A stretch of DNA of 64,000 bases. Source: a virus. Position 1 is the first letter of the stretch; each line of letters starts with the position of its first letter. Both the position numbers and the translations under genes were made by a program. The stretch lies in IMG/VR virus record IMGVR_UViG_3300048694_001005, positions 1 to 64,000 of that record, one strand, 5' to 3'. Below the pieces are notes generated by a model that searched no databases, had not been told where the DNA came from, and worked only from the letters and a program-made list of their open reading frames with translations. This document shows, in pieces, positions 3,229-49,322 of this stretch.

Positions 3229-4296
3229 TTATGTGTCTGAAGACTCTGCGACATCATCTGTTGTATTGTTTGCATGCAATTTCTTTTGGAATTCGCTCAT
3301 TACCAAATCAGCTATTCCATCTTCGTTACGATTCCATTCCTTGCGGAAATATTTATGTTCTTTTCCACTTAGATCAATATAAACATAACGATTGCCATCT
3401 TTGGATATGAGATTTCTCTTTTCCAACATTTCAAACAGTCCACTATACGGGTCCATGCCTTGGGTATATGGGATCTTAATTTCGATATCTTCAAATGGCT
3501 TCGCATAGCGAGTTTTCATAATTTTGCACCCCGCTCTAATTCCACGCACCTCGGATACCTTATTACCATCATCGTCTTCTTTTAGTTTGAGTTTTTTCAT
3601 GGCCACCACAATTGAACTTGCATAGATGAATCCCTGCCCGCCACTTATATTTGGATCAGGGCTATAAGGATCCTGACTCGCATACGTATGGTTAGTAGCA
3701 ACCAAACCAATATTTAAACTACCAAACATGTTTACACAGTTGCGAACTAATGCGGTCAGTGCTTTGGGTTTACGACCCATGTCACCTTTTAAGTCACCAG
3801 CATCAAACTGATTTACATCTGTGGGCGTCAATAACATTCCCAAACTATCCAAAACAAATAGGACCTTGGGGCGATCTGCTTCAGGAATTTCTTTGTAGCT
3901 TTTTACGAATTCACTGATCATTTTGGCTACATCATCAATCATAGCCATGTTCAGCTTGAGCAACTTGTCTTCACTGGTATCTACACCCAGGGCATGTAGC
4001 CAAGTTTCGTCTAGTGCATTTTCGCTGTCAATCAAAATCACATAAATGCCCTGTGCTTGTGCATTTTTGATTAGATTACCTGCACATATAAAACTTTTAC
4101 CAGCACCGGATTCTCCAGCAAATACGGTTACCTTACCTAGCGGAATTCCTTTGTAGAAATCTCCACTAATCAGATAATTGAGTGTATAATTATTAGTGCT
4201 GATCCAGTCAGTTGGGTCGTTAAACCCCACACTAATTCCATCAATTGCTTTGGTTATATTTTTTCTGAATTTACTTACATCAAAAGGTCGTTGCAT
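3229..4296 (-). CDS. uvsX: UvsX, RecA-like recombinase
   Basis: The product has 355 residues (T4 UvsX has 391). It would polymerise on single-stranded DNA and catalyse strand exchange for recombination-dependent replication and repair. Visible motifs are Walker A GESGAGKS at 61-68, Walker B VLFVLDSL at about 145-152, a QFDAGDLKGDMGRKPKAL region matching RecA loop 1, and TNHTY plus ISGGQGF matching the switch and loop 2 area. It is followed by a small acidic gene, the radical SAM gene and the UvsY-like gene. A strong terminator at 4330-4365 separates it from gp32, so it must have its own promoter, which I cannot place with confidence. Confidence 0.95.
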   Translation of the reverse strand: MQRPFDVSKFRKNITKAIDGISVGFNDPTDWISTNNYTLNYLISGDFYKGIPLGKVTVFAGESGAGKSFICAGNLIKNAQAQGIYVILIDSENALDETWLHALGVDTSEDKLLKLNMAMIDDVAKMISEFVKSYKEIPEADRPKVLFVLDSLGMLLTPTDVNQFDAGDLKGDMGRKPKALTALVRNCVNMFGSLNIGLVATNHTYASQDPYSPDPNISGGQGFIYASSIVVAMKKLKLKEDDDGNKVSEVRGIRAGCKIMKTRYAKPFEDIEIKIPYTQGMDPYSGLFEMLEKRNLISKDGNRYVYIDLSGKEHKYFRKEWNRNEDGIADLVMSEFQKKLHANNTTDDVAESSDT

Positions 4297-7281: not shown

Positions 7282-8859
7282 TCACATAATGATGAAGGGC
7301 ATGGGTAAAATTAGATCCTCTAGGTTGTCCTGATCTCGCAATCTAGCATCTAATTCGGGGTCATAATTTTGCAAATGCACTAACATACGTACCGCAATTA
7401 GCGTGGCCATAACCAAATCGTCGGTTTCGCCCAGTTTTGCCTTGTAACTACCACCAGTAGCTATAAAATTCTTTAATTCGCTTACCAAGGTTTTGCTTTT
7501 TATTAGCAGTTTTTGTGATTCTACCAACTGTTTTAGCTTTGCACAGGCCGAAAGTTTGTTCATTTTACTAGTAGTGAAACCCTTCCTGTGTTGTCTAGCC
7601 GAGCCCTTTTTCAAGGGTTCGCTCATCATGAGTCCTGGTATATTTTCCTCACCGTAATCACGCAATGCTACTAGCCCAGCTTCGCCTACGGTATTGTTTT
7701 CCAAACTGTAATAAATTCTAGTGGGATCTTTAACCGTCTCTGCAATCATTTCTACTATTTCAGCTAAAATTTTAATTTGCTTTTCCACAGGAGTTTTATT
7801 GTGACACCATTCTGCAACTTGCTCGCAACTGGGCAGTTCAAAAACTTCTATCGCTGCAGGATCACCGCCAGTGCCTATACTAGGATCTAAACTTACCAAA
7901 TAGGTAGAATTTTTGTCTATGTTTTTATACCAACGTATTTGCCCAGTTTTGTTAATTGGGGCTTGTCCTTCCATGGTGCTTAGAAATAAGGGATTAATTA
8001 ATGTTTCTTCATCTCGTATGAATTCGCACTCCATTTCGCGACGGAATCGTTCTTCGCCTAATTGAGCTCGCTGCTCAGCTGCCCATGTCTCATCACGATC
8101 AGGATGTTCGTTCCAATATGCTCTAAATGCTTTAAACCCATTGCGCCCAACATCAGTCTCATTGCCATATTCATCCGTGCATTGATTTGCAGCATTCCAA
8201 ATCATAGCAAATTGATCTTCATCACTATTGGGTGTACTAGTTAAAATTGCTTTACCACCAGTAGACAACGTAGGGCTAATACTGGTCCAAAACTCCTGGG
8301 CTATAGTAGGTCGCACAAAGCTAAACTCGTCACAATATAGTAGGGTAATACTCATACCACGACCAGTATTTTCTGTTGTGGCTTGGCTAACAATCCTGCT
8401 GCCATTTTCAAATTCTATACTGCCCTTGTTATAACTAGTAACGCCGGCTCTTATATGATTAGGACACATTTCGTATGCATATCTTATACGTTGCATAATT
8501 TCCTGTGCACCTAAATATTTGTGTGCCGCCACTAATATGGTGCTGTCTGGCACAAACATTGCATACCATAACAAATAACCTGCAGCGGTTGCAGTTTTGC
8601 CCATTTGTCGCGGCAGCATATTAATGTTAAATCTATAATTATGATAGGTTGCTATTAAACGAACTTGGTAATCATAGGGTGCGTATAACATCTTGCCGCG
8701 TATTGGATGCTGAATATAAAAAAAGTGAGTGAGGAAATACAATGGCCCAGTAACCGGGTTAGCGCATTCTGCAAACTCTTTGAGTTCCTGCGACTTGTAA
8801 CTTTCCTGCCTGTGTGGTTTTTTAATTAATACCTGATCTAGTACACTAGGTGAACTCAT
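7282..8859 (-). CDS. 17: gp17, terminase large subunit
   Basis: The product has 525 residues (T4 gp17 has 610). It is the packaging motor: an N-terminal ATPase pumps DNA into the prohead and a C-terminal RNase H-like nuclease cuts the concatemer. Walker A is LPRQMGKT at 82-89, Walker B ends ITLLYCDE with D177/E178, and the coupling segment is ILTSTPNS. The nuclease domain begins with LVSLDPSIGTGGD (D325), and later acidic residues include ETDDLVMA near the C-terminus. Its ATG overlaps the previous stop (ATGA). Identification is secure. Confidence 0.96.
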   Translation of the reverse strand: MSSPSVLDQVLIKKPHRQESYKSQELKEFAECANPVTGPLYFLTHFFYIQHPIRGKMLYAPYDYQVRLIATYHNYRFNINMLPRQMGKTATAAGYLLWYAMFVPDSTILVAAHKYLGAQEIMQRIRYAYEMCPNHIRAGVTSYNKGSIEFENGSRIVSQATTENTGRGMSITLLYCDEFSFVRPTIAQEFWTSISPTLSTGGKAILTSTPNSDEDQFAMIWNAANQCTDEYGNETDVGRNGFKAFRAYWNEHPDRDETWAAEQRAQLGEERFRREMECEFIRDEETLINPLFLSTMEGQAPINKTGQIRWYKNIDKNSTYLVSLDPSIGTGGDPAAIEVFELPSCEQVAEWCHNKTPVEKQIKILAEIVEMIAETVKDPTRIYYSLENNTVGEAGLVALRDYGEENIPGLMMSEPLKKGSARQHRKGFTTSKMNKLSACAKLKQLVESQKLLIKSKTLVSELKNFIATGGSYKAKLGETDDLVMATLIAVRMLVHLQNYDPELDARLRDQDNLEDLILPMPFIIM

Positions 8860-9075: not shown

Positions 9076-9306
9076 TTACTGACGTTCTTTGATATATTCC
9101 AATACTTGTTTCAACATTATACTAATATCAGACGAACCCAATTCTTCTGCGCCAGCATGAAACTCAGCTACATGCATAACTGCATCCGCCACCACTTCGT
9201 GACCGTGTTGTGCTACAATGTCAGGAAAACGATGTTCCAATCTGTCAAACAAAACGTTACCCAAGTCCTGTGAACTAATACCTTCTGTCAATTCTTTTAA
9301 ACGCAT
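9076..9306 (-). CDS. Possible internal translation product of the 564-residue gene
   Basis: Met 489 of the 564-residue frame starts MRLKELTEGIS, the same kind of N-terminus as other CTS-like proteins here, and AAAGGG lies 6 nt upstream of this ATG (9306-9304). The resulting 76 residues form a compact helical domain ending IMLKQVLEYI. It could be made alone, or released by cleavage at QGMLE (477-481) or LTE-G (494-497). Confidence 0.4.
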   Translation of the reverse strand: MRLKELTEGISSQDLGNVLFDRLEHRFPDIVAQHGHEVVADAVMHVAEFHAGAEELGSSDISIMLKQVLEYIKERQ

Positions 9307-10770
9307 ATTTTTCCCTTTGTTATTACTTTCAAGCATTCCCTGTTTCTTTGACAATATTTTGTACTTGGTATTAGGATGTTTGGCCAGTACCATAGCTGCT
9401 TGACTTTCTGCTTCGGATTTGGAAGCATAATGAGCAGCTGGTTTGTCATTTAGATATAAAACATATCTTTTAGTTATGGGGTCTGTAGATTCATCATAGC
9501 CTTTAACTGGGACTCGTTTTAAATCAGTATCGGTAAATCCACCACGATTGTATGCATCAGCTAATGCGTTGGCTAATTCTTTACTACCCGTAGTACCTGT
9601 GCCGTATTCTTCTCCATTGGGAAGGATACCCATTATTTGAAAAGTTGTCTTGCCGGGTTTAACATAAAACGATTCAAATGGTACTGGATCTTTAGCCAAG
9701 TTTGGAGGCAAAGCTCTGCCAACTTCACGATCAAATACGGGAATATCTATGCCCTCAACTTTGTGGTATTGATCCCGGCCACGCTGTGCTTGTTTGGTGG
9801 CAAACTTGGTGCGGATGACATCACCTTCAGCCACATCTTTTGTTCTATGTAATATCTCTTTGCTTACCGCCAATGCCATTTTTTCTCGTTTAGGATCTCC
9901 GTTTAAGAGTTTCAACATCTGCATTAACGAATCAGTAGAGTACTTAGTATAATCTGCCATTGGTAAAATTTTATTAGGATCGTCCTGATTTTTACCATCA
10001 GATTCTGCGTATTGCTTGTCTGCTATAGCATCACCATAGGTGCCAGGAACATCATCACGATATACATTGCCCACTCTTGCGGCTTCGGCCAGTGCGGAGG
10101 TCAATACCATGGATCTACGTCTAATTTCAAAGTCTTTGCCCGGATGCTCATGCTGTATCTTTAACAGCGCACGTTCAGCATCAGCTTGGTTTGGGGCCTT
10201 TTTAATCATACGCCCATCAGCGTATATCGCGTATTCTTCCGTAGGTGGTACTCCAGCTTCTTCCGTGTTAAGCATACCAATAACTGTAGCGTTGTTGCGA
10301 CGGACCCACAAATCCAATGCGGCTTCATTGGGGAATGTTTTGCTCCAGTGTTGACGCTGATCTCTGCGATCATACACATAACCATATGCTTCTACTGGTT
10401 GTGTTGGATCAAATCGGTTTTTACTTGCGGTCTTAACTGGTTCAGGTTCTTCTTCCAGTTCTGTACCAGCCGGTGCCACTGGTACAGGTAATGAAGGTTT
10501 GGGCTTTTTAGTTTCTTGGCTGTCAACAAACTTTTTAAATTCAGATTCACTGGCCCAGGTACCATAGGGACCATACATTCTGCTGTCTGCAGAATCAAAA
10601 GGATTTTCTTTTCCTAGCAATTCCCTGCCACTGGGATCAAATACGTGATGTACTTTTTTAGTTACATCAACATCAACTAATAGTTCTGGCACATAACGCC
10701 AACCCTGATAGTCTATTGGTTCGGGTTCGCCGCCTCGCCATAAGCCTTCAAAAATGTTAAATAAATTCAT
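9076..10770 (-). CDS. Multi-module late protein with CTS-like N-terminus
   Basis: The product has 564 residues. It starts MNLFNIFEGLW, which fits the capsid-targeting pattern found in other genes here (x-I-F-E then G). At least two related modules are visible, one beginning YAIYADGR near 178 and another YVLYLNDK near 430; each is an aromatic strand followed by an Ala/Glu-rich helix and a lysine-rich HPGK or HPNTK turn. The C-terminal 76 residues form a separate domain that begins at an internal Met with its own ribosome site. I infer a gp21-processed internal head protein. No enzymatic motif is seen. Confidence 0.7.
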   Translation of the reverse strand: MNLFNIFEGLWRGGEPEPIDYQGWRYVPELLVDVDVTKKVHHVFDPSGRELLGKENPFDSADSRMYGPYGTWASESEFKKFVDSQETKKPKPSLPVPVAPAGTELEEEPEPVKTASKNRFDPTQPVEAYGYVYDRRDQRQHWSKTFPNEAALDLWVRRNNATVIGMLNTEEAGVPPTEEYAIYADGRMIKKAPNQADAERALLKIQHEHPGKDFEIRRRSMVLTSALAEAARVGNVYRDDVPGTYGDAIADKQYAESDGKNQDDPNKILPMADYTKYSTDSLMQMLKLLNGDPKREKMALAVSKEILHRTKDVAEGDVIRTKFATKQAQRGRDQYHKVEGIDIPVFDREVGRALPPNLAKDPVPFESFYVKPGKTTFQIMGILPNGEEYGTGTTGSKELANALADAYNRGGFTDTDLKRVPVKGYDESTDPITKRYVLYLNDKPAAHYASKSEAESQAAMVLAKHPNTKYKILSKKQGMLESNNKGKNMRLKELTEGISSQDLGNVLFDRLEHRFPDIVAQHGHEVVADAVMHVAEFHAGAEELGSSDISIMLKQVLEYIKERQ

Positions 10771-11315
10771 TTGGGTTGTTGTCTTTGTTGTGTAGTGATT
10801 ATTGTTTTTAGTTGCTGACCTAACTTTGGATCTTTTGCCAAATCGCCCATTACCTGAGCAGCTTTTCTTAATGTAGGTTGATCTCCCTTGGCTAACTTCA
10901 TGGGATCTATACCTGTAGTTGGTGTAAGTGTAGTTTTTGCTGCTGCCAAAGACTTTGCTGCTGCTGCTTTTTCCTGTGGACTTTGGGGTGCATTAGGTTG
11001 TGCGGGTTGTCCTGTTGCTGTGGCTGTGGCTGTGGCTGGGGCAACGGGTGCTTCGTCGATTTCTTCGCCCTGTGCGGAATTCATAAAACGCTCAAACTCG
11101 TCTAGATATTGACCTTCCAAGTCATCATGTTTAACACTTTCGCTACTGCCGCCAACTAAACGACCCTGAAATGGATGTTTCTTGTAAGGTGTGCCAGGTT
11201 CATAACCGGTCTTCTTAGCTTTTTCTGTTCCTCTTACTTGATCACCTGGCTTTTGTTTGGGCTCGCCTGCAAAGTCATAAGTTTCTGCCAGAAACTTTTT
11301 TATCGACCAGTTCAT
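10767..11315 (-). CDS. Low-complexity late protein with CTS-like N-terminus
   Basis: The product has 182 residues. It begins MNWSIKKFLAETYDF; the segment KKFLAE closely resembles the T4 internal-protein targeting end (EFIAE). The middle is disordered, with Ala-Thr and Pro-Gln repeats near 95-135, and a short helical domain closes the protein. Its gene overlaps both neighbours by 4 nt (ATGA type), so the three genes are translationally coupled. Function is unknown; a packaged head protein is inferred. Confidence 0.65.
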   Translation of the reverse strand: MNWSIKKFLAETYDFAGEPKQKPGDQVRGTEKAKKTGYEPGTPYKKHPFQGRLVGGSSESVKHDDLEGQYLDEFERFMNSAQGEEIDEAPVAPATATATATGQPAQPNAPQSPQEKAAAAKSLAAAKTTLTPTTGIDPMKLAKGDQPTLRKAAQVMGDLAKDPKLGQQLKTIITTQQRQQPK

Positions 11316-12508
11316 TTTTTACCTTTCATGGGTCGTTTCACCGACTCACGTTTAATAGTACCAGGACCACCGTTTTTAAACCCATTGCCTGCCATACTGG
11401 TTGCGACGCTGGCGCTGCCTGTTGCTCCTGCCGACATTTCGGACAATTCTTCATCGTCATCCCAACCTTTAGCTTTGCCAGGAAAATAACGATGTACCGC
11501 TTTATCATGACTTGGTACTAGTTTCAAGCGACTGGGAGAAATATACCAACCACGTCCATCTTTGTCTTCGATTCGAACACGACGATCATAGGGATCACCA
11601 TTCATACGAAAGACTTCACCACCGTCGCCGTCCATTTCGTCACGCACAAAACAACCGTCGTAAAGTTCAGTATCGTCGTATTCACCTTCCGCCACACTTT
11701 GCTTTCGATCCAACATCACTGGCACAATTTTAATTTTATCACCGCTGCTAGGGTTGTATAGACCACGGTCAAAGGCATTGACGACCCCAACACGATCGGC
11801 TGTTTCTTGGTCAAAATTTCCTCTGAAACGCAAAACTTTTTTTCTATTGACTAAAATTTGCCATGTACCACTAAATCTACCAGGTTGTCGTTCTGATTCC
11901 GCCACACCTTGCTCACTAACCTTCTTTTTGTACAACGGATTGGTACTGCCTTGGTTTTTCATTTTTTTAACATCTCGGTCAAAAGGTTTATCTAAATCTT
12001 TCCAAGTGGTTTTGGAGCCTTCCGCCACACCTTTTACATGCCAAGTTTTACCGCATTGATGGCATTCTTTCTCACCATCACTGTAGGTTTTGATATCGGT
12101 ACTGTAACAGCCCGGGCAATGTGTACTAGTAGTAGGTTTGGCACCTGTACCTGACTTTGTCTTGGGTTCTGGTTCGTTCTTTTGATCTTCGGCCATACCT
12201 TGCGAGGATTCGGACAATCCCAGTGTTTCATCTACAGTGATGTCACCAGTGCTGTGCTGTTCATATTCCAAATAGCTGCGAACGCTACAAAGATAATCAG
12301 ATGCTTTGGTAATTTTAGCCTGCACCCAGCCCTCGATATTTGCATCTTCGGGCAGATGTTTTAACATATCATGTAATGCCATAGCTGCTTTGGCTGCTTT
12401 GTACAGCTCGCTGCGCGCCATTTGCACCTCATGATCTATATGCATAGCCTTGGCTTGATCGCCAATAATCTCTAACTGCTCTTCGTCGTGAAATTCTACA
12501 AGTTTCAT
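11312..12508 (-). CDS. Polyprotein-like late protein with four spaced VAE/MAE sites
   Basis: The product has 398 residues. Residues 1-90 form a helical domain (EVQMARSELYKAAKAAMALH, then GWVQAKITKASDYL) that I recognise only as a conserved hypothetical in aquatic T4-like phages. Four near-identical pentapeptides follow: QGMAE (103-107), KGVAE (159-163), QGVAE (200-204) and QSVAE (270-274). They separate a zinc-ribbon module (CPGC at 131-134, CHQC at 149-152), a basic 40-residue module, a beta-rich module and a C-terminal module with PYDRRVRIEDKDGRGWYI. The sites resemble gp21-type cleavage sites (hydrophobic-x-Glu). An AATAAATA box and an AAAGG ribosome site precede it. Confidence 0.7.
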   Translation of the reverse strand: MKLVEFHDEEQLEIIGDQAKAMHIDHEVQMARSELYKAAKAAMALHDMLKHLPEDANIEGWVQAKITKASDYLCSVRSYLEYEQHSTGDITVDETLGLSESSQGMAEDQKNEPEPKTKSGTGAKPTTSTHCPGCYSTDIKTYSDGEKECHQCGKTWHVKGVAEGSKTTWKDLDKPFDRDVKKMKNQGSTNPLYKKKVSEQGVAESERQPGRFSGTWQILVNRKKVLRFRGNFDQETADRVGVVNAFDRGLYNPSSGDKIKIVPVMLDRKQSVAEGEYDDTELYDGCFVRDEMDGDGGEVFRMNGDPYDRRVRIEDKDGRGWYISPSRLKLVPSHDKAVHRYFPGKAKGWDDDEELSEMSAGATGSASVATSMAGNGFKNGGPGTIKRESVKRPMKGKK

Positions 12509-12543: not shown

Positions 12544-12811
12544 TTTTGAACGTACCATCTGTGCCTAGGTTTATGGACTCTCCATTTAATACCGCGTTTT
12601 TTAAACTAAAACTAGTTGTATAGGGCCCTGCTACAAAAATTTTATGCTCACCTTCCGTTAGCCTCACCACACAACGTTCTCTAATAAATTGTGAGTTAAT
12701 ATCATAGGAAAAATCACGTTCCGTTAATAAATCCTGATCTAAATATAACCTATAATAGGGCACAGGCTCTACATTATTGCAATAAACATCTACGGTTAGC
12801 ACATCTTCCAT
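12539..12811 (-). CDS. Small beta-rich protein
   Basis: This 90-residue protein is predicted as a single beta-sandwich (YYRLYLDQDLLTERDF, then LTEGEHKIFVAGP). The same pattern, a short YF/YR-x-x-LD strand followed by LT(E/D)GEH, occurs in the 150-residue gene at 16365-16817, so the two are probably related domains flanking the 1169-residue gene. Its ATG overlaps the stop of that large gene by 1 nt. The fold resembles small carbohydrate-binding modules, but binding is not shown. Confidence 0.6.
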   Translation of the reverse strand: MEDVLTVDVYCNNVEPVPYYRLYLDQDLLTERDFSYDINSQFIRERCVVRLTEGEHKIFVAGPYTTSFSLKNAVLNGESINLGTDGTFKK

Positions 12812-15800
12812 TAGGGAACCTTTTTGGGTTCAGCTGGGATTACAGGTGCTGGTAATGGCTGCTTTGATTTTTTCCTTTGTTCGAGATCTCGTAATCTAGC
12901 AAGTAATTTTTCACTAGCCGGGCGTACTCTCTTACGGTTAGTTTCACTTAATCTGAAAGGTTCCTTGACTGAGGTCTTTATTTTCCAATCACTAAATTTC
13001 AACATCAATAATGTTTTGAAATGTTCTAGGTCAGCCAAGGATTTAAACAAAAATCCCCAAAAAATCATTTCTGAATTTGCGATTTCTTCGCCAGGAAAAC
13101 TAGTTATTGAACCATCCTCACGTTTCAAATATATTAGATTATTGCGTTTTTCCAAAAACTCTGCAGGTTTATTTAGATATTTGAACACCAACAATTTTCC
13201 CATAACCACAGCAGTTACACTAGCAGCAAAATAATATTCTCCAACGGTAGGAGTTTCGGATTTGTAATTTGAGAAAAAATCTCTAACTGTAGATAATTCT
13301 TCTGGACTTTCTTTAAGATGATTAGACTTAATTTGAAGTTTTTCAACTTCCAACATCGTTTCCAATACCACATCATCATAAACTATACCATCTACTATAG
13401 TTACGTGTTCAGGAAGATCATTACTAATTAACTTTGAAGTATTGGCGTAATTTTTGGAAATGGGACGAACGTAGTCACGATCACCAGTAATTGGGCTCAT
13501 GCTGTCGCCTTCAATCTCATTGATTTTGTCATCAATTTTTGCCAAGTTCATGTTCTTTCTAGCAACATCCATAAGATGCTTAATCCAGGGCTCACCCAAT
13601 TTTTCTACGTTGTAGGCCTGAGACCAAATGCCCAATTTTTGCTTTGCTGTAAGGTTAGGATTAGCTAATGCTTGGCGCAGTTGTGTAGTGCTTACACCTG
13701 TGCCGCCCTGCTCTGCAGATCGCGGTGTTATGTATGCAGACACTTTGACGTGGCTCAATGGCGCAAAACGACCAAATCTATCCTGCATTGACTTAGCTAC
13801 TTTAGCAACTCCAGTTTGATCAGCACCAACCGTTATAATTATATTGTTGTAGTGTGGCTGCTTTTTGACTAATTCATATTCTATCTTTTTAAAGATATTG
13901 CCCACAGTTTCGGCGCCGGTTGCTGGATCTATTTGATTTTGTACCTCACTAATAGTTACGCCAGGATACAATTTACGCAAAGTTTCTAATTTGGTATGAA
14001 TATCAATAGGATCTTCTTTACCCACTTTGTGTCCAACAAAAACAAACGGTGTACCTTTTACTGCTTTGGCTTTTTCAATGGCATAATTAATTAACTGCTC
14101 ATGGCCTCTATGCCCAGCAAAATTACCAATAGCTACTACCGCGGTACGTGGTGTATGTCGTACTGCTGGTGTTACAACTTGTCGCTGCACCGGCGCGGCC
14201 GCAGCTTTCTTGGCCGCCATTTTGTGTTGCATTAATGTGCTAGTAACTTTAGCTAGCAAACCGCTGGGCATATTAATTACTAAACCTTCAATATTTTTAC
14301 CCAGTTGATCCTTGCCTTTAATCTTGGGGTTTTTAATAATTGCATCAGATAGTGATTTACGTAATTTGTTTAAAATTTCCCTAGCTTTTTGCTTCTCTGG
14401 TGTCATGCCACCACGTCGCAATAATGCATCTTTTACGGCTGGTTCCATATTAACCACAGGTGCTATTATTTTCTTCACATCTATTGCAGCATGTTTCAGT
14501 TCATTGTCTACAAATTTAATTGACTTGTCACCTTGCGACAATAATTTATGCTTAATCTTATCAGCATCAGGCAATGATTCACCTGTACTATACTTCTTAA
14601 ACATAAAGGGCACAAGTGTCATTTCTTTACCCAATTTCTTGGGATCATAACTGATATTGACAAACTTGTAACCATCTTTGGTTTTCTCGGCCATGTCATT
14701 AAACAACATCTCCGCTTGCACAATGCAGTCTTTGGGTAGTGTTTTAATAAACTTGCTGTTTACAATTAGAGATAATGCTTTGTCATAATTTTTGGTGCGA
14801 TCTAATTGTTCTTGGCTCTGCCCTTGTTCTCTGCCATATTTTTCAAAACTGCCAATATCTTTAGCGTATAGCGGGGAGGTCACACGGCTAGTCATCATAA
14901 AAGGTTCACCCTTTTGATCACGACCAAAACGAATTCCAGCACCATCAACCTTAAGATTAATTGGAATACCCGTTAATGTGCCTTTGTTGGCAGTAATTTC
15001 ATCGCACATCATAATGAAGTCACTGTCACGCATCTCGGTTGAACTTCCTGGATTATAGATATGTTTGATGCCCTGACGCTTGTAATTGGGTTTGGCGGTT
15101 TCTGCTTCTTTAAGCCCTTCTGTTACTTTCATTCTGTAATTAGCTTTGTAATCTGCTACCATCTTTTGGAAGTTTTTAGGTGCTTTTATTTTCAATGCTT
15201 TTAGCATAGCATCTACCGCGATCATTTTTTCCCGTGCATCAGTTTCTGGATCGTTTACGTATAGACCCTGTGCAGCTGGGCCAAAAGTTTTATCTATGAA
15301 GGAATCTGCTACTTTTTGTTTTTCTTCTGGTGATAGATATTGATTAATTACTGATAAAACCCCCAAGAAAGACCAAAATTTAGGTGCCACCGAGGCCAAC
15401 TGTTTATTACTAAGGCGCTCACCAAACAAAGTTGCAAATATTTTAGATAAATCCTGCTCATACCCAGTAGTGGGCCTAGCAGTGTACACCTTCATACCAT
15501 CTTTAACCAAAGGTTTTTTAGTTGTTGTATCAATAACTGGCTCGTATTTTATACGTAACCCGCCACCCTCTTTACTTTGTACCGAAAAACTAATCATGTT
15601 GTCAGTCATTGGAACATCTTGCTCTGCGCGAGCTTTGCCACGACCAACCAATTTACGCAATAGGAAATCCTGTTCGGTTAATGAAGCCAAACTTTGCAAA
15701 ATAAACTTATGGAATACGCCCTTGATACCAGCTTGTAGATCTTCCCACGCAGAGCTGGCACTGAATCTGCTCCATTCAGTTGGCGTACCTGCTTGGAATG

Positions 15801-16320
15801 CTTTTAGCTCTAGGTCAATTTGAACATTGGTGGGTACTTGTTTACCGCTGTCTGTTTGTAATGCAATGCCAGGAAAGCGCCACAATGTAATGTATTGTTC
15901 TGCCGATAATTTGAAGCCTATAAATTGTGATGGGCCAAATTTAGTTCCAGGGCGCAACTTACTTAGCCACGCACCTACTGCTTCTTTTTGCTCACGATCA
16001 ACTTGGGTGTCAATATCTCCTACAGTTTTTTTAACTTTAGCAAAATCCAAATCATTAATTTGTGCTCTGTTAAAGAAATGAAAGGAGGACCCGCTTAAAA
16101 AGAGGCCGCTTGCAAGTGTTTTGGGATTCCATAATGGTGTGCCTTTGTTGAACTTTTGAAAGCTGCTGTTTATTGCAGCTAATGCAGCTTGTATAATTGG
16201 TACAACTTCTGCACGTTTCGTAGCATCAATTCTGTTGGCTTCGGCGTCACCTATTACTACATTGCCGCCCTCTGATAATATAGTTAAATTATTGTTAGCT
16301 GTTACTAAAATGATCTTCAT
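12811..16320 (-). CDS. NTase - ligase-type adenylation - HxGH nucleotidyltransferase fusion
   Basis: The product has 1169 residues and at least three catalytic-looking domains. Residues about 30-230 show the pol-beta nucleotidyltransferase pattern: GSS at 77-79, GDID at 101-104 and IDLE at 168-171 (acidic triad D102, D104, D169). Residues about 420-700 fit a covalent nucleotidyltransferase of the RNA/DNA ligase type: KVDG at 457-460 (motif I lysine K457), QAEMLF at 535-540 (motif III) and IEGLVI at 677-682 (motif IV). Residues about 724-900 have HRGH at 737-740 and STTQLR at 877-882, the two signatures of NMNAT/cytidylyltransferase enzymes. An unknown domain follows. VTEG (399-402) and EIEG (935-938) may be protease sites between domains. 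A role in RNA or NAD repair is inferred. Confidence 0.8.
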   Translation of the reverse strand: MKIILVTANNNLTILSEGGNVVIGDAEANRIDATKRAEVVPIIQAALAAINSSFQKFNKGTPLWNPKTLASGLFLSGSSFHFFNRAQINDLDFAKVKKTVGDIDTQVDREQKEAVGAWLSKLRPGTKFGPSQFIGFKLSAEQYITLWRFPGIALQTDSGKQVPTNVQIDLELKAFQAGTPTEWSRFSASSAWEDLQAGIKGVFHKFILQSLASLTEQDFLLRKLVGRGKARAEQDVPMTDNMISFSVQSKEGGGLRIKYEPVIDTTTKKPLVKDGMKVYTARPTTGYEQDLSKIFATLFGERLSNKQLASVAPKFWSFLGVLSVINQYLSPEEKQKVADSFIDKTFGPAAQGLYVNDPETDAREKMIAVDAMLKALKIKAPKNFQKMVADYKANYRMKVTEGLKEAETAKPNYKRQGIKHIYNPGSSTEMRDSDFIMMCDEITANKGTLTGIPINLKVDGAGIRFGRDQKGEPFMMTSRVTSPLYAKDIGSFEKYGREQGQSQEQLDRTKNYDKALSLIVNSKFIKTLPKDCIVQAEMLFNDMAEKTKDGYKFVNISYDPKKLGKEMTLVPFMFKKYSTGESLPDADKIKHKLLSQGDKSIKFVDNELKHAAIDVKKIIAPVVNMEPAVKDALLRRGGMTPEKQKAREILNKLRKSLSDAIIKNPKIKGKDQLGKNIEGLVINMPSGLLAKVTSTLMQHKMAAKKAAAAPVQRQVVTPAVRHTPRTAVVAIGNFAGHRGHEQLINYAIEKAKAVKGTPFVFVGHKVGKEDPIDIHTKLETLRKLYPGVTISEVQNQIDPATGAETVGNIFKKIEYELVKKQPHYNNIIITVGADQTGVAKVAKSMQDRFGRFAPLSHVKVSAYITPRSAEQGGTGVSTTQLRQALANPNLTAKQKLGIWSQAYNVEKLGEPWIKHLMDVARKNMNLAKIDDKINEIEGDSMSPITGDRDYVRPISKNYANTSKLISNDLPEHVTIVDGIVYDDVVLETMLEVEKLQIKSNHLKESPEELSTVRDFFSNYKSETPTVGEYYFAASVTAVVMGKLLVFKYLNKPAEFLEKRNNLIYLKREDGSITSFPGEEIANSEMIFWGFLFKSLADLEHFKTLLMLKFSDWKIKTSVKEPFRLSETNRKRVRPASEKLLARLRDLEQRKKSKQPLPAPVIPAEPKKVP

Positions 16321-45783: not shown

Positions 45784-46962
45784 TTAACTGAATGTCAAGT
45801 TGCTGACAGAAATCTCGCCGAGGTAGTCTCCGGCATTTCCCAGCGAACTTGCGGTATTGGTCAATTCTATGTAGCCATATCTCGTCATAAAGCCAACGAC
45901 TGGTTCGAAGGTATTTGGATCCAGCACAACGCCGCTGCTCATCAATGGAATGTATGGGCAGTAGAATGCTGCTGCATCTGCTTCGCTGCTACCTTTGTAA
46001 CCAACAAGTACTGCGGTGCTATCACTTGCGTAGCTATCAACGTAAACTTTCATAGCGCCGTTCAGTGTACCAACGAACTTAGTGTTAGTTGGGGCTTCAA
46101 AGGTGCCTTCAGTTGTACGTGCAAAAGCCGAAGTAGTTGCGCTTTGTAGCACGGTTAGGGCTGTTGGGCTAACTACGCACCAGTTACCAGCGCCACGACG
46201 TGTACGTGCAGCGATCTTGTTTGCAACGCGGTTGATAAGAACAGCAAGTGCAGCGTGTTCATCACCAACGAAAGTTGCGGTACCGCTAACTGCGGCTTGG
46301 TTAAATGTTTCTTCAGTTGCTGCAAGGCTGCGCAAGCTGTTCAGGACTTCTTGGTCGATTTCAACCGTAATTTCCTGAGCCAATGCTGCCATGATTTCTG
46401 CTTCAACATCAAGGCCGTGCATAGCTTGTGCATCTTGTGCAGCTTCAAACGTCCAGCGAGCGCTCAACTTGCGTGTACGAGCTTCAACTGTCTGCTTGAG
46501 GATCTGCACGTTGATCTTACGACCAGGTGAACCTTCAAGAGCGGTTGTTGCGCTTGCGCGAGCTGTAGCTGCATCACCTGAGTAAGCAACTGCAATTTTG
46601 AATGGGCTCAGTGCTTCGTCACCGGCGGTTGTGTCGGTGTTTAAGCTGCTGGTGTCATTCATTGTCTCTGCATAACGAACACGCAGAGTGTGGATCTGTG
46701 CGATTGGACCAGTCATTGGCTGAACGCCAACGATTTCGTTCGCAATCACGGTTGGCATAACACGACGGATCACTGGAAGGATCACGCGATTTAGGGTAGC
46801 AACGTTACCTACTGCTGTTGCACCGGTGGTCGCAGTTTCCATCAAGTGTTTGCGTGTGTTTTCCAACACAACTGCCATACTCGTACGGCGTGAACCTTGA
46901 AGACCTTCTAACAGGGCTTCTTTTGTTTCACCCCAACGACTTTCTAGTAATGCTTTTGTCAT
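45784..46962 (-). CDS. 23: gp23, major capsid protein
   Basis: The product has 392 residues, shorter than T4 gp23 (521) but similar to marine T4-like versions. It builds the HK97-fold shell. Recognised segments are ATLNRVILPVIRRVMPTVIANEIVGVQPMTGP, typed here in pieces as IANEIVGVQPMTGP, then IHTLRVRYAE, and the C-terminal GFMTRYGYIELTNTASSLGN-type end. In T4 the N-terminus is removed by gp21; LMETATTG near 40-47 offers a hydrophobic-x-Glu site (LME). AAGGAG precedes the ATG. Folding probably needs the phage GroES-like protein. Confidence 0.95.
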   Translation of the reverse strand: MTKALLESRWGETKEALLEGLQGSRRTSMAVVLENTRKHLMETATTGATAVGNVATLNRVILPVIRRVMPTVIANEIVGVQPMTGPIAQIHTLRVRYAETMNDTSSLNTDTTAGDEALSPFKIAVAYSGDAATARASATTALEGSPGRKINVQILKQTVEARTRKLSARWTFEAAQDAQAMHGLDVEAEIMAALAQEITVEIDQEVLNSLRSLAATEETFNQAAVSGTATFVGDEHAALAVLINRVANKIAARTRRGAGNWCVVSPTALTVLQSATTSAFARTTEGTFEAPTNTKFVGTLNGAMKVYVDSYASDSTAVLVGYKGSSEADAAAFYCPYIPLMSSGVVLDPNTFEPVVGFMTRYGYIELTNTASSLGNAGDYLGEISVSNLTFS

Positions 46963-46984: not shown

Positions 46985-48088
46985 CTACTTTAGCCCTGCT
47001 AGACGCTTGAGTTCCACGACGTTACTGTCTGTGTTCTCTACAACCGTCTTAACAGCTTTGTCACCAGTCACTTCTTTACGGCTTTCTGCCAGTACTTGCT
47101 TATTAGCCTGTACTTCTGCAGGTTTACCGTTAGTTAGAACTGCTGGTAGATACTTGTCAAATGCGGACTTTAGCTTAGGAGTCTGCACTGATTCCAACAA
47201 CTCGCTCATTACACGTGCCTTATCTTTGGTTAGTGTGCCCAGCAATTCGTTCATAGTCTCCTTGCGTTCCATTAAATCTTTCTGAACGCGGATTTGTGAC
47301 TCTTTGCTTTCCACCAACTTAGTCTTAGCAGCGATTACTTTTTTACTTTCCGCAATGATAGCTTCCTGACCAGCAATAAGTTTATTAAGCTTACTGATCT
47401 CTGTGTTTTCATTTAGGTGAGTAACTGTAAATTCACTTGCAAAGGCTTCAAAAATGCGGCGACCAAACATATTTTCGCGAGCTTCTTTGATGTCTTTCTT
47501 GAACTGTGTAAGTTCAGCTCTTAGATTCTTGGCCACTGATTCCTTAACAATAGCTGCGCTCTGGGTCACAAATTTCTTTTCTAGTGATTCCAGTTGAGCT
47601 TTTGCGTTGGACATCAAGCGAACTTTGGTTTCAGCCAAATCGCGCTTGTCGATGGTGAACTCCTGAATCTCTTCAGCTAATTGCTTGATCACAAATTTCT
47701 CTAGACGAGCGATTGCTTCGTTTTGAGTTTTGCGATCTGCACGTAGTTCCTGAATTTCTTCAGCAAGTTTACCAGTCAAGAACTTGTTGAATTTACGACC
47801 AGTTTCCATTGCATGATTCTTAAATGCAACGCGGTCTTCCATCAACTTGCGCTTGTCTTCTGCAAATTCTTGCAACTCTTGTTTCAGACTTTCGGTCACC
47901 ATTTTGTCTAAAGCTTCAACCATAACCGACTTATCATGCTCGTAGTTTCTGGCGAATTCTTCACGTAGCTCGGCGCGGACCTGTTCACGGGTCTCTGCCA
48001 ACTTTGATTCCCAAGCTTCGCTAATAGCTTGCTTGGTATCTTCGTTCACCAATCCACTATCGATCAGGGGTTTTATCGCTTCTAGCAT
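46985..48088 (-). CDS. 22: gp22, prohead core scaffold
   Basis: The product has 367 residues from MLEAIKPLIDSGLV at 48088; the frame extends upstream but AAGGAG sits 8 nt before this ATG. It is almost entirely charged coiled-coil, as expected for the internal scaffold that is destroyed by gp21 after shell assembly. It ends VVELKRLAGLK, an ELxxLAG peptide shared with other late proteins here. It lies between gene 21 and gene 23 as in T4, separated from 21 by an inserted endonuclease gene. Confidence 0.85.
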   Translation of the reverse strand: MLEAIKPLIDSGLVNEDTKQAISEAWESKLAETREQVRAELREEFARNYEHDKSVMVEALDKMVTESLKQELQEFAEDKRKLMEDRVAFKNHAMETGRKFNKFLTGKLAEEIQELRADRKTQNEAIARLEKFVIKQLAEEIQEFTIDKRDLAETKVRLMSNAKAQLESLEKKFVTQSAAIVKESVAKNLRAELTQFKKDIKEARENMFGRRIFEAFASEFTVTHLNENTEISKLNKLIAGQEAIIAESKKVIAAKTKLVESKESQIRVQKDLMERKETMNELLGTLTKDKARVMSELLESVQTPKLKSAFDKYLPAVLTNGKPAEVQANKQVLAESRKEVTGDKAVKTVVENTDSNVVELKRLAGLK

Positions 48089-48687
48089 TTGGTTCTCCTT
48101 AATAGGACTTCTTGTAACCCTCTGTCCTGTTGGGTTATTCCGGTGTCGAGTTCTTGGGCACCGCAAATTCTCTTTTTGTTTTGCTTAGTTAATCTTTCTG
48201 TGTTACCAATTTTTAGACGTTGTTCGGGTGTAAATGAATGTCCTGGTTTACCTTTTCTGGTATTTCCTGATCTAATGCCATTTAATCGTACTTTTTCATT
48301 AGTTTCTTTCGTCAAACCTTTATTCCAAGCGACTCGACCTTTTTTAGATTTTGATAATTTATCTTTATGCCTCTGACTCATTGGTCCTTTTTGCTTACCA
48401 GACATTGAAAATTTTTTATCATTATTAGATTGGTTAAAACTTCTAGAATCGTTTTTGGCATCTAATAACTGTAGAATTTCACTTTCTAGTTCAATCATTT
48501 CGGACGGGCTACCTGTTGCAATTATATGTCGATACCACTCTTCTTTATTTTCTAAGATCATAGGTTTGACTAACTTGCTTGAACAGATGTAACCATCATC
48601 TGGATGGCAACCTCTTGCTGTTCGTGACCCCACATACCAATTCAACGTGGGTATGTGGGTCCATTTGTAAAGAAAAGCTGTAGTCAT
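48082..48687 (-). CDS. GIY-YIG-type homing endonuclease between genes 21 and 22
   Basis: The product has 201 residues. The N-terminus, FLYKWTHIPTLNWYVGSRTA, has the first and second strand of a GIY-YIG nuclease (YKW and YVG), followed by a catalytic-type Arg (R23) and a Glu (IELESEI). A NUMOD3-like DNA-binding motif, MSQRHKDKLSKSKKGRVAWN, lies near 102-121. Its start overlaps the gp21 stop (ATGA) and its end overlaps the gp22 start, so it fits seamlessly into the head operon. Its last codons contain the ribosome site of gene 22. Confidence 0.8.
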   Translation of the reverse strand: MTTAFLYKWTHIPTLNWYVGSRTARGCHPDDGYICSSKLVKPMILENKEEWYRHIIATGSPSEMIELESEILQLLDAKNDSRSFNQSNNDKKFSMSGKQKGPMSQRHKDKLSKSKKGRVAWNKGLTKETNEKVRLNGIRSGNTRKGKPGHSFTPEQRLKIGNTERLTKQNKKRICGAQELDTGITQQDRGLQEVLLRRTKC

Positions 48688-49322
48688 TTTAATTTCAGTT
48701 CGTTTATAAGTTTTAATACCGATTCTCTCAAATACTTTTGTACTCTTAGATCGGCACTAACATCCTTAGATGCTTCGATCACCCTATGTCCACCCTGCAT
48801 ATTCATCAACCCTTCAAATACAGGTTTAGGATAAGCATTTGGGGCACTGGGTTGTGCCACGATATCAACTGTTACTATTTCAAAGTTACGTACCTTGCCC
48901 GTGCCGTCATCAACTTCACCACTGCCACGTGAACTGACACCTAGTTTTACACCACAATCCAACATGGTTTTAACTATGTTGCCCATGGGTGTTGGAATAA
49001 TTCTCATTTTTCCAAAACCATTAGGACCATCCATCCACATTTTAGTAATTACGTGACTAACACGGTCTAAGTTAATTTTTAGGTCAGCTGGGTGATCTAC
49101 CTCGCCCAATACGCTGTGTCCTTTGGCAATTTGTTCGTTAATAAAATCTACTGCCTTGCTAATTTCTTCAACTGGGTAGATGCGTTTATTTTGATTCTCA
49201 ACCGCTGCCTGAATAAAGATACCTTTGAGAAAAAGATCCTTTCGTTCGCCAGTGCCCTCAGTCTCTAGTACTAAGTTTGCCTGGTCGAACGAAAGTTGTT
49301 CTCTAAGTAATGTTGTAGACAT
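48684..49322 (-). CDS. 21: gp21, prohead maturation protease
   Basis: The product has 212 residues, the same size as T4 gp21 (212). It is the serine protease that cuts scaffold, capsid and internal proteins at (I/L)-x-E sites. H77 in GEVDHP and serine 130/131 in GVSSRGSGEV are the expected catalytic residues of this herpes-assemblin-like family; EIVTVDIVAQPSAPNA supplies the conserved third strand. Its specificity is central to the CTS-like peptides found throughout the window. Confidence 0.93.
   Translation of the reverse strand: MSTTLLREQLSFDQANLVLETEGTGERKDLFLKGIFIQAAVENQNKRIYPVEEISKAVDFINEQIAKGHSVLGEVDHPADLKINLDRVSHVITKMWMDGPNGFGKMRIIPTPMGNIVKTMLDCGVKLGVSSRGSGEVDDGTGKVRNFEIVTVDIVAQPSAPNAYPKPVFEGLMNMQGGHRVIEASKDVSADLRVQKYLRESVLKLINELKLK

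Follow-up and report, generated by a model that had tools for sequence, protein, structure and literature searches.

The window analysed here is the first 64,000 bases of a 180,565-base virus contig. On its minus strand, at positions 12508 to 11312, translation reveals a modular ORF of 398 aa, which we call a predicted capsid-cargo polyprotein on the basis of its translation, its relatives, and its predicted structure. The protein contains four closely similar motifs, QGMAE, KGVAE, QGVAE, and QSVAE, starting at residues 103, 159, 200, and 270, respectively; a preliminary description made from the sequence alone had listed these motifs and positions, and they held exactly. Chance origin of the four motifs was ruled out by shuffling the ORF with its composition kept, as two or more motifs arose in only 2 of 200,000 trials and more than two in none. 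No other window ORF of at least 60 aa contains more than one [QK][GS][VM]AE motif. At the DNA level the four sites, which we term seams, constitute a 17-nt direct repeat (DNA word AGCAAGGTGTGGCGGAAGGC), being copies of one 17-mer with 0, 1, 3, and 3 mismatches.

The protein begins with the capsid-targeting-like sequence MKLVEFHDE (12482–12508), identified by alignment with relatives and by N-terminal enrichment. A helical module follows (residues 9–87; 12248–12484), which was assigned from homology and predicted structure and is homologous to many seam ORFs and to part of S-SM2 T4-GC119, a gene located between gp16 and gp17. Seam 1 (QGMAE, 12188–12202) precedes a zinc-ribbon module with the pattern CPGC...CHQC (residues 108–163; 12020–12187). 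The ribbon itself is predicted at about residues 130–158 with pLDDT values of 86–93, and the module recurs in L074 and in a 910-aa gene elsewhere in the record. Beyond seam 2 (KGVAE, 12020–12034) lies a basic module of pI 9.6 (residues 164–204; 11897–12019) within a stretch predicted to be disordered (residues 161–208); a 93% identical copy, again between seams, is present in the 910-aa gene. Seam 3 (QGVAE, 11897–11911) has the exact DNA consensus. The next module (residues 205–274; pI 10.3; 11687–11896) rests on predicted structure, a β-β-α-β fold at residues 212–264 with pLDDT mostly 85–92, and ends in seam 4 (QSVAE, 11687–11701). Seams 1, 2, and 4 were assigned from the motif and the 17-mer, and seam 3 from the motif and the DNA word. 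The remainder (residues 275–398; 11315–11686), defined by relatives and predicted structure, comprises a β-rich domain predicted with moderate confidence at residues 287–341 and a disordered C-terminus. In the AlphaFold model the seams are located within low-confidence linkers that separate folded units, or border on such linkers. The predicted structure thus agrees with the helical domain, zinc ribbon, basic peptide, β module, and tail of the preliminary description, which had not recognized the capsid-targeting-like N-terminus or an additional junction of the hydrophobic-x-E type around residue 355 (EELSE; EDMAEG at this place in one relative). No Pfam family matched the protein above its cut-off, PHROG matches were weak and of unknown function, and a Foldseek search of the predicted structure against the PDB returned nothing with E < 0.001.

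Two further minus-strand ORFs sit directly downstream, one of 182 aa (10767–11315) and one of 564 aa (9076–10770), with sequences that start in a capsid-targeting-like manner (MNWSIKKFLAE and MNLFNIFE, respectively). The latter has a KDVAEG junction and an internal MRLKELTE, suggestive of fused cargo genes. Also on the minus strand of the window are a gp17-like large terminase (7282–8859), a UvsX-like recombinase (3229–4296), the major capsid protein gp23 (45784–46962; PF07068, E 3.5e-99), a scaffold-position protein with six hydrophobic-A-E sites (46985–48166), and a gp21-type prohead protease (Peptidase_S77; 48684–49322; PF03420, E 5.8e-29), the predicted cutter. A homing-endonuclease-like ORF (48082–48687, minus strand) lies between the protease and scaffold-position genes and overlaps the 5' end of the scaffold-position open frame. 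Outside the window, and absent from the preliminary description, is a second seam gene, a 910-codon open frame at 122619–125351 of the record that contains more seams and shares the zinc-ribbon and basic modules with the 398-aa ORF as near-identical copies. A 705-codon open frame in G000 (101724–103841, plus strand) has a KGVAE seam near its end.

Besides being a peptide motif, the seam is a word conserved in the DNA, and modules are swapped at it; the preliminary description lacked this property. The exact word CAAGGTGTGGCGGAAGG matches at least 120 viral-contig stretches. Every exact copy (163/163) is read in frame, giving QGVAEG, and the ORFs concerned have a median length of 593 aa. Conservation of the DNA spans positions −2 to +17 with sharp borders. 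Leaving aside the search bait, the same 15 bases are found in 33 of 58 QGVAE sites, against an expected share of about 0.8%, calculated as the product of codon frequencies in the ORFs concerned. A reversed seam pattern, used as a control, had no match in 18 records. The seams are therefore kin by DNA descent or exchange and have not arisen by convergence. A looser seam with 14 fixed bases also matched bacterial genomes; these matches were taken as chance, there being one per retrieved stretch, unlike in viral contigs. No paper on QGVAE in phages was found among the text matches returned, which mostly concerned α-synuclein, and none was found on T4-GC 119.

Within seam ORFs, 45% of the ends of nucleotide homology lie 15 nt or less from a seam, compared with 5.7% for random positions. 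More than one left or right neighbor was observed for 65 of the 73 recurring module clusters, and the number of seams per ORF reaches 8. For example, a module 88% identical to the tail module of the 398-aa ORF follows QGVAEG in L132/L133, where its upstream neighbor is unrelated. The check proposed in the preliminary description, that the number and order of modules between VAE sites should vary among relatives, was thus clearly positive. The UvsX-like recombinase is a candidate driver of seam exchange, but this role is inferred. In L110 (819–1236), tandem, seam-bounded copies of one module are 99% identical over 217 bases, indicating a recent duplication.

The T4 protease gp21 cuts after L/I-x-E (PMC9026906). 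Relative to synonymous changes, the rate of change per opportunity in near-copies of the seam was 0.18 for Glu, 0.38 for Val, 0.71 for Ala, 2.4 for Gly, and 2.7 for Gln, and the Val changes were mostly to Met, Leu, or Ile. These figures come from near-copies with up to four mismatches and so include some chance matches; with up to three mismatches, Glu was again lowest, Val next, and Gln highest. Constraint accordingly rests on the P1 Glu and the P3 hydrophobic residue, not on Gln or Gly, and matches the gp21 recognition pattern. This is shown for the sequence; cleavage itself is inferred. A polyprotein with sites for a trans-acting protease should have a repeated cut-site motif at domain borders with constraint on P1 and P3, and the seams fulfil this criterion. 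The gp23 propeptide of this phage is predicted to end in HLME, aligned with HLAE or MLAE in relatives, and the predicted propeptide end in the major capsid proteins of S77-positive seam records is L-x-E, LAE in several. Two observations count against the polyprotein reading: other hydrophobic-x-E triplets exist inside the helical domain of the 398-aa ORF, and P3 of the seam is Val whereas T4 gp21 prefers Leu or Ile.

Of the complete seam ORFs, 57% have a T4-like capsid-targeting start; among control ORFs taken from those contigs the share is 21% (p about 1e-11). The N-terminus of the 398-aa ORF, MKLVEFHDE, aligns with MKTTDFITE (L025) and MKPTEFIVE (L116). By sequence only, it meets the T4-type criterion of a capsid-targeting N-terminus ending in hydrophobic-x-E; a targeting function is inferred. 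In T4, a targeting peptide of 10 residues is enough for packaging (PMC9026906). The accompanying T4-type criterion, a genome with an S77 protease and a gp23 head, is also met. The two genes were found together in an identical set of 7 of 18 seam records, and neither is present in the other 11. The lack of S77 in those 11 counts against the polyprotein reading; they may be fragments, but three of them exceed 160 kb. A search with phrog_207 added no further protease-bearing records.

Modules fused in some phages are separate genes in others. In HTVC168P, CRP-5, DC33, P-SCSP1a, and S-CBP4, the GLYANI-type module found in the 910-codon gene stands alone as a gene of 49–63 aa, and in several of these podophages it adjoins a gene for scaffold, capsid, or tail tube. 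DUF6321 is likewise separate in HTVC168P (assigned by Pfam) and in S-RIP2, P-SCSP1a, and S-CBP4 (assigned by likeness); in S-RIP2 the annotated GLYANI ORF is longer. No S77 match was obtained in any of these records. S77 was matched in ACG-2014e, Syn1, S-CAM1, Sf-FR1, and S-SM2, and in the first four of these the GLYANI module is fused into longer ORFs; in ACG-2014e, GLYANI and DUF6321 modules share one 141-aa ORF. In small viral contigs the GLYANI module was separate by rule in 34 of 48 classified cases. On manual reading, about six others could be traced to a start at a nearby Met, and about 8 are true fusions that lack seams, the latter counting against the polyprotein reading. The association of fusion with S77, and of separate genes with its absence, is a tendency and not a law. 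The record of Limnohabitans phage DC33 (L149, PQ492659.1) is filed under Inoviridae, yet it is 39 kb long and has a podophage-type GLYANI mini-gene, so its taxonomy looks wrong.

We consider it likely (probability about 0.68) that the 398-aa ORF is the precursor of capsid-internal proteins of an aquatic T4-like phage, a shuffled polyprotein. The evidence is comparative only. The sequence, the conservation and shuffling at seams, the targeting-like starts, and the linked head genes are shown. The Glu-centered constraint, the targeting-like N-termini, the linked S77 and gp23 genes, the L-x-E site of gp23, and the fused versus separate genes together favor gp21-type processing of capsid cargo. 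The preliminary description had inferred such processing into several small capsid products; comparison alone supports it, and cleavage, presence in the virion, and injection remain inferences. In the proposed mechanism, the N-terminal targeting peptide would bring the 398-aa chain into the prohead core, where the phage's own S77 protease would cut each hydrophobic-x-E seam on the C-terminal side of its Glu. This would free several small modules, most of them separately folded, which would be packaged with the DNA and probably ejected into the host, as the T4 internal proteins are. Packaging and ejection are, like cleavage, inferred. Homologous recombination at the short seam word would carry modules from gene to gene and from phage to phage. 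We propose that the seam is near-identical at the DNA level because modules recombine there, although recombination as the process that keeps the word identical is again an inference. With a protease site in the encoded peptide, the seam would then be both recombination joint and cut site.

The most serious alternative is that the seam is only a recombination joint in an uncut multidomain protein, with QGVAEG a flexible linker. Identity at the DNA level, module swapping at seams, and the location of seams in disordered linkers all fit this view; indeed, DNA-level identity alone could have arisen from recombination without any cleavage. We nevertheless judge it unlikely, since a mere joint does not account for constraint on Glu and the hydrophobic residue two before it while Gln and Gly are free to change, for the capsid-targeting-like N-termini, or for the homologous modules that are separate genes in other phages. 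Less likely still is that the modules are not cargo but a scaffold or core protein that is cut up and, as with T4 gp22, gp67, and gp68, largely disappears from the head. The cutting of T4 core proteins by gp21 into several fragments (PMC9026906) and the six hydrophobic-A-E sites of the scaffold-position protein speak for it. Against it stand the diversity of the modules, of which several are folded and one forms a zinc ribbon; their strong variation from phage to phage, which sets them apart from a conserved scaffold; and the presence in this phage of a distinct scaffold-position gene.

If the repeat were a mobile DNA element, or the target of a homing endonuclease, that had repeatedly inserted in coding regions and whose peptide had no role, its sharp borders of approximately 20 nt and its very high DNA identity in unrelated contigs would be explained. 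This reading is all but excluded: the single reading frame of all 163 exact copies, within long ORFs, and the uneven, Glu-centered amino acid constraint rule out a mobile element as the sole explanation, and no inverted repeats were found in the 398-aa gene.

The capsid-cargo polyprotein reading can be placed beside several known systems. The T4 internal proteins are known anti-restriction factors, each encoded by one gene with one targeting peptide. Like IPI–IPIII and Alt, the seam gene has a short N-terminal MKxxxFIxE-like targeting peptide with a hydrophobic-x-E end and belongs to a T4-like phage with gp23 and gp21, in which varied cargo stands behind a conserved leader (PMC9026906, PMC3012670, PMC12373910). 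It differs in that T4 makes one protein per gene and removes the targeting peptide, whereas the seam gene has several modules and repeated internal seams. Homology to IPI–IPIII or Alt beyond the leader was not found with Pfam or PHROG; this is not strictly defining, because the T4 internal proteins share only the leader among themselves (PMC12373910). Roles of the modules in anti-defense or DNA binding are plausible by analogy with the T4 internal proteins, but are inferred.

Polyvalent proteins, known from phages and conjugative elements, also combine many domains in one polypeptide, are predicted to accompany the DNA into the host, and are sometimes processed by a protease (PMC5512222). Judged by structure and module reuse, the 398-aa ORF satisfies one criterion of Iyer et al. 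(2017), that a single mobile-element polypeptide hold several unrelated domains. However, polyvalent proteins are large and enzymatic, and many have a metallopeptidase or assemblin-like domain embedded in them (PMC5512222), whereas the modules of the seam gene are small, its predicted protease acts in trans, and its joints are one standard sequence. No Pfam domain of the catalytic or embedded peptidase types typical of polyvalent proteins was found in the 398-aa or 910-aa protein. Head proteins of the giant phages phiKZ and SPN3US are extensively cut after x-x-E by a gp21-related protease, with several cuts per propeptide (PMC10052503), but those cuts remove propeptides, and a multi-product cargo with a repeated seam has not been described in the literature searched.

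If the polyprotein reading is true, shuffled, protease-cut cargo would explain how many small effectors could be loaded by one targeting event, and seam plus targeting peptide would be a sequence signature by which hundreds of modules that lack annotation could be flagged as candidates for injection. A bolder version, on which we find the arguments evenly balanced, is that the approximately 20-nt coding word is a plug-in joint across many aquatic T4-like phages, permitting in-frame cargo swapping and release by the head protease under one targeting peptide.

Further close parallels are T4-GC119 of the Kyanoviridae and related genes of the gp16–gp17 interval, a known hot spot (PMC3037559). They carry the same helical module with other shared modules in one ORF, but those examined lack the QGVAE DNA seam. 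In the present window, a 1169-aa ORF with a cytidyltransferase-like domain (12811–16320, minus strand) adjoins the module gene. A cytidyltransferase-like protein, T4-GC190, has been detected in cyanophage virions (PMC3037559), and in Syn1 its gene lies two genes ahead of a module gene.
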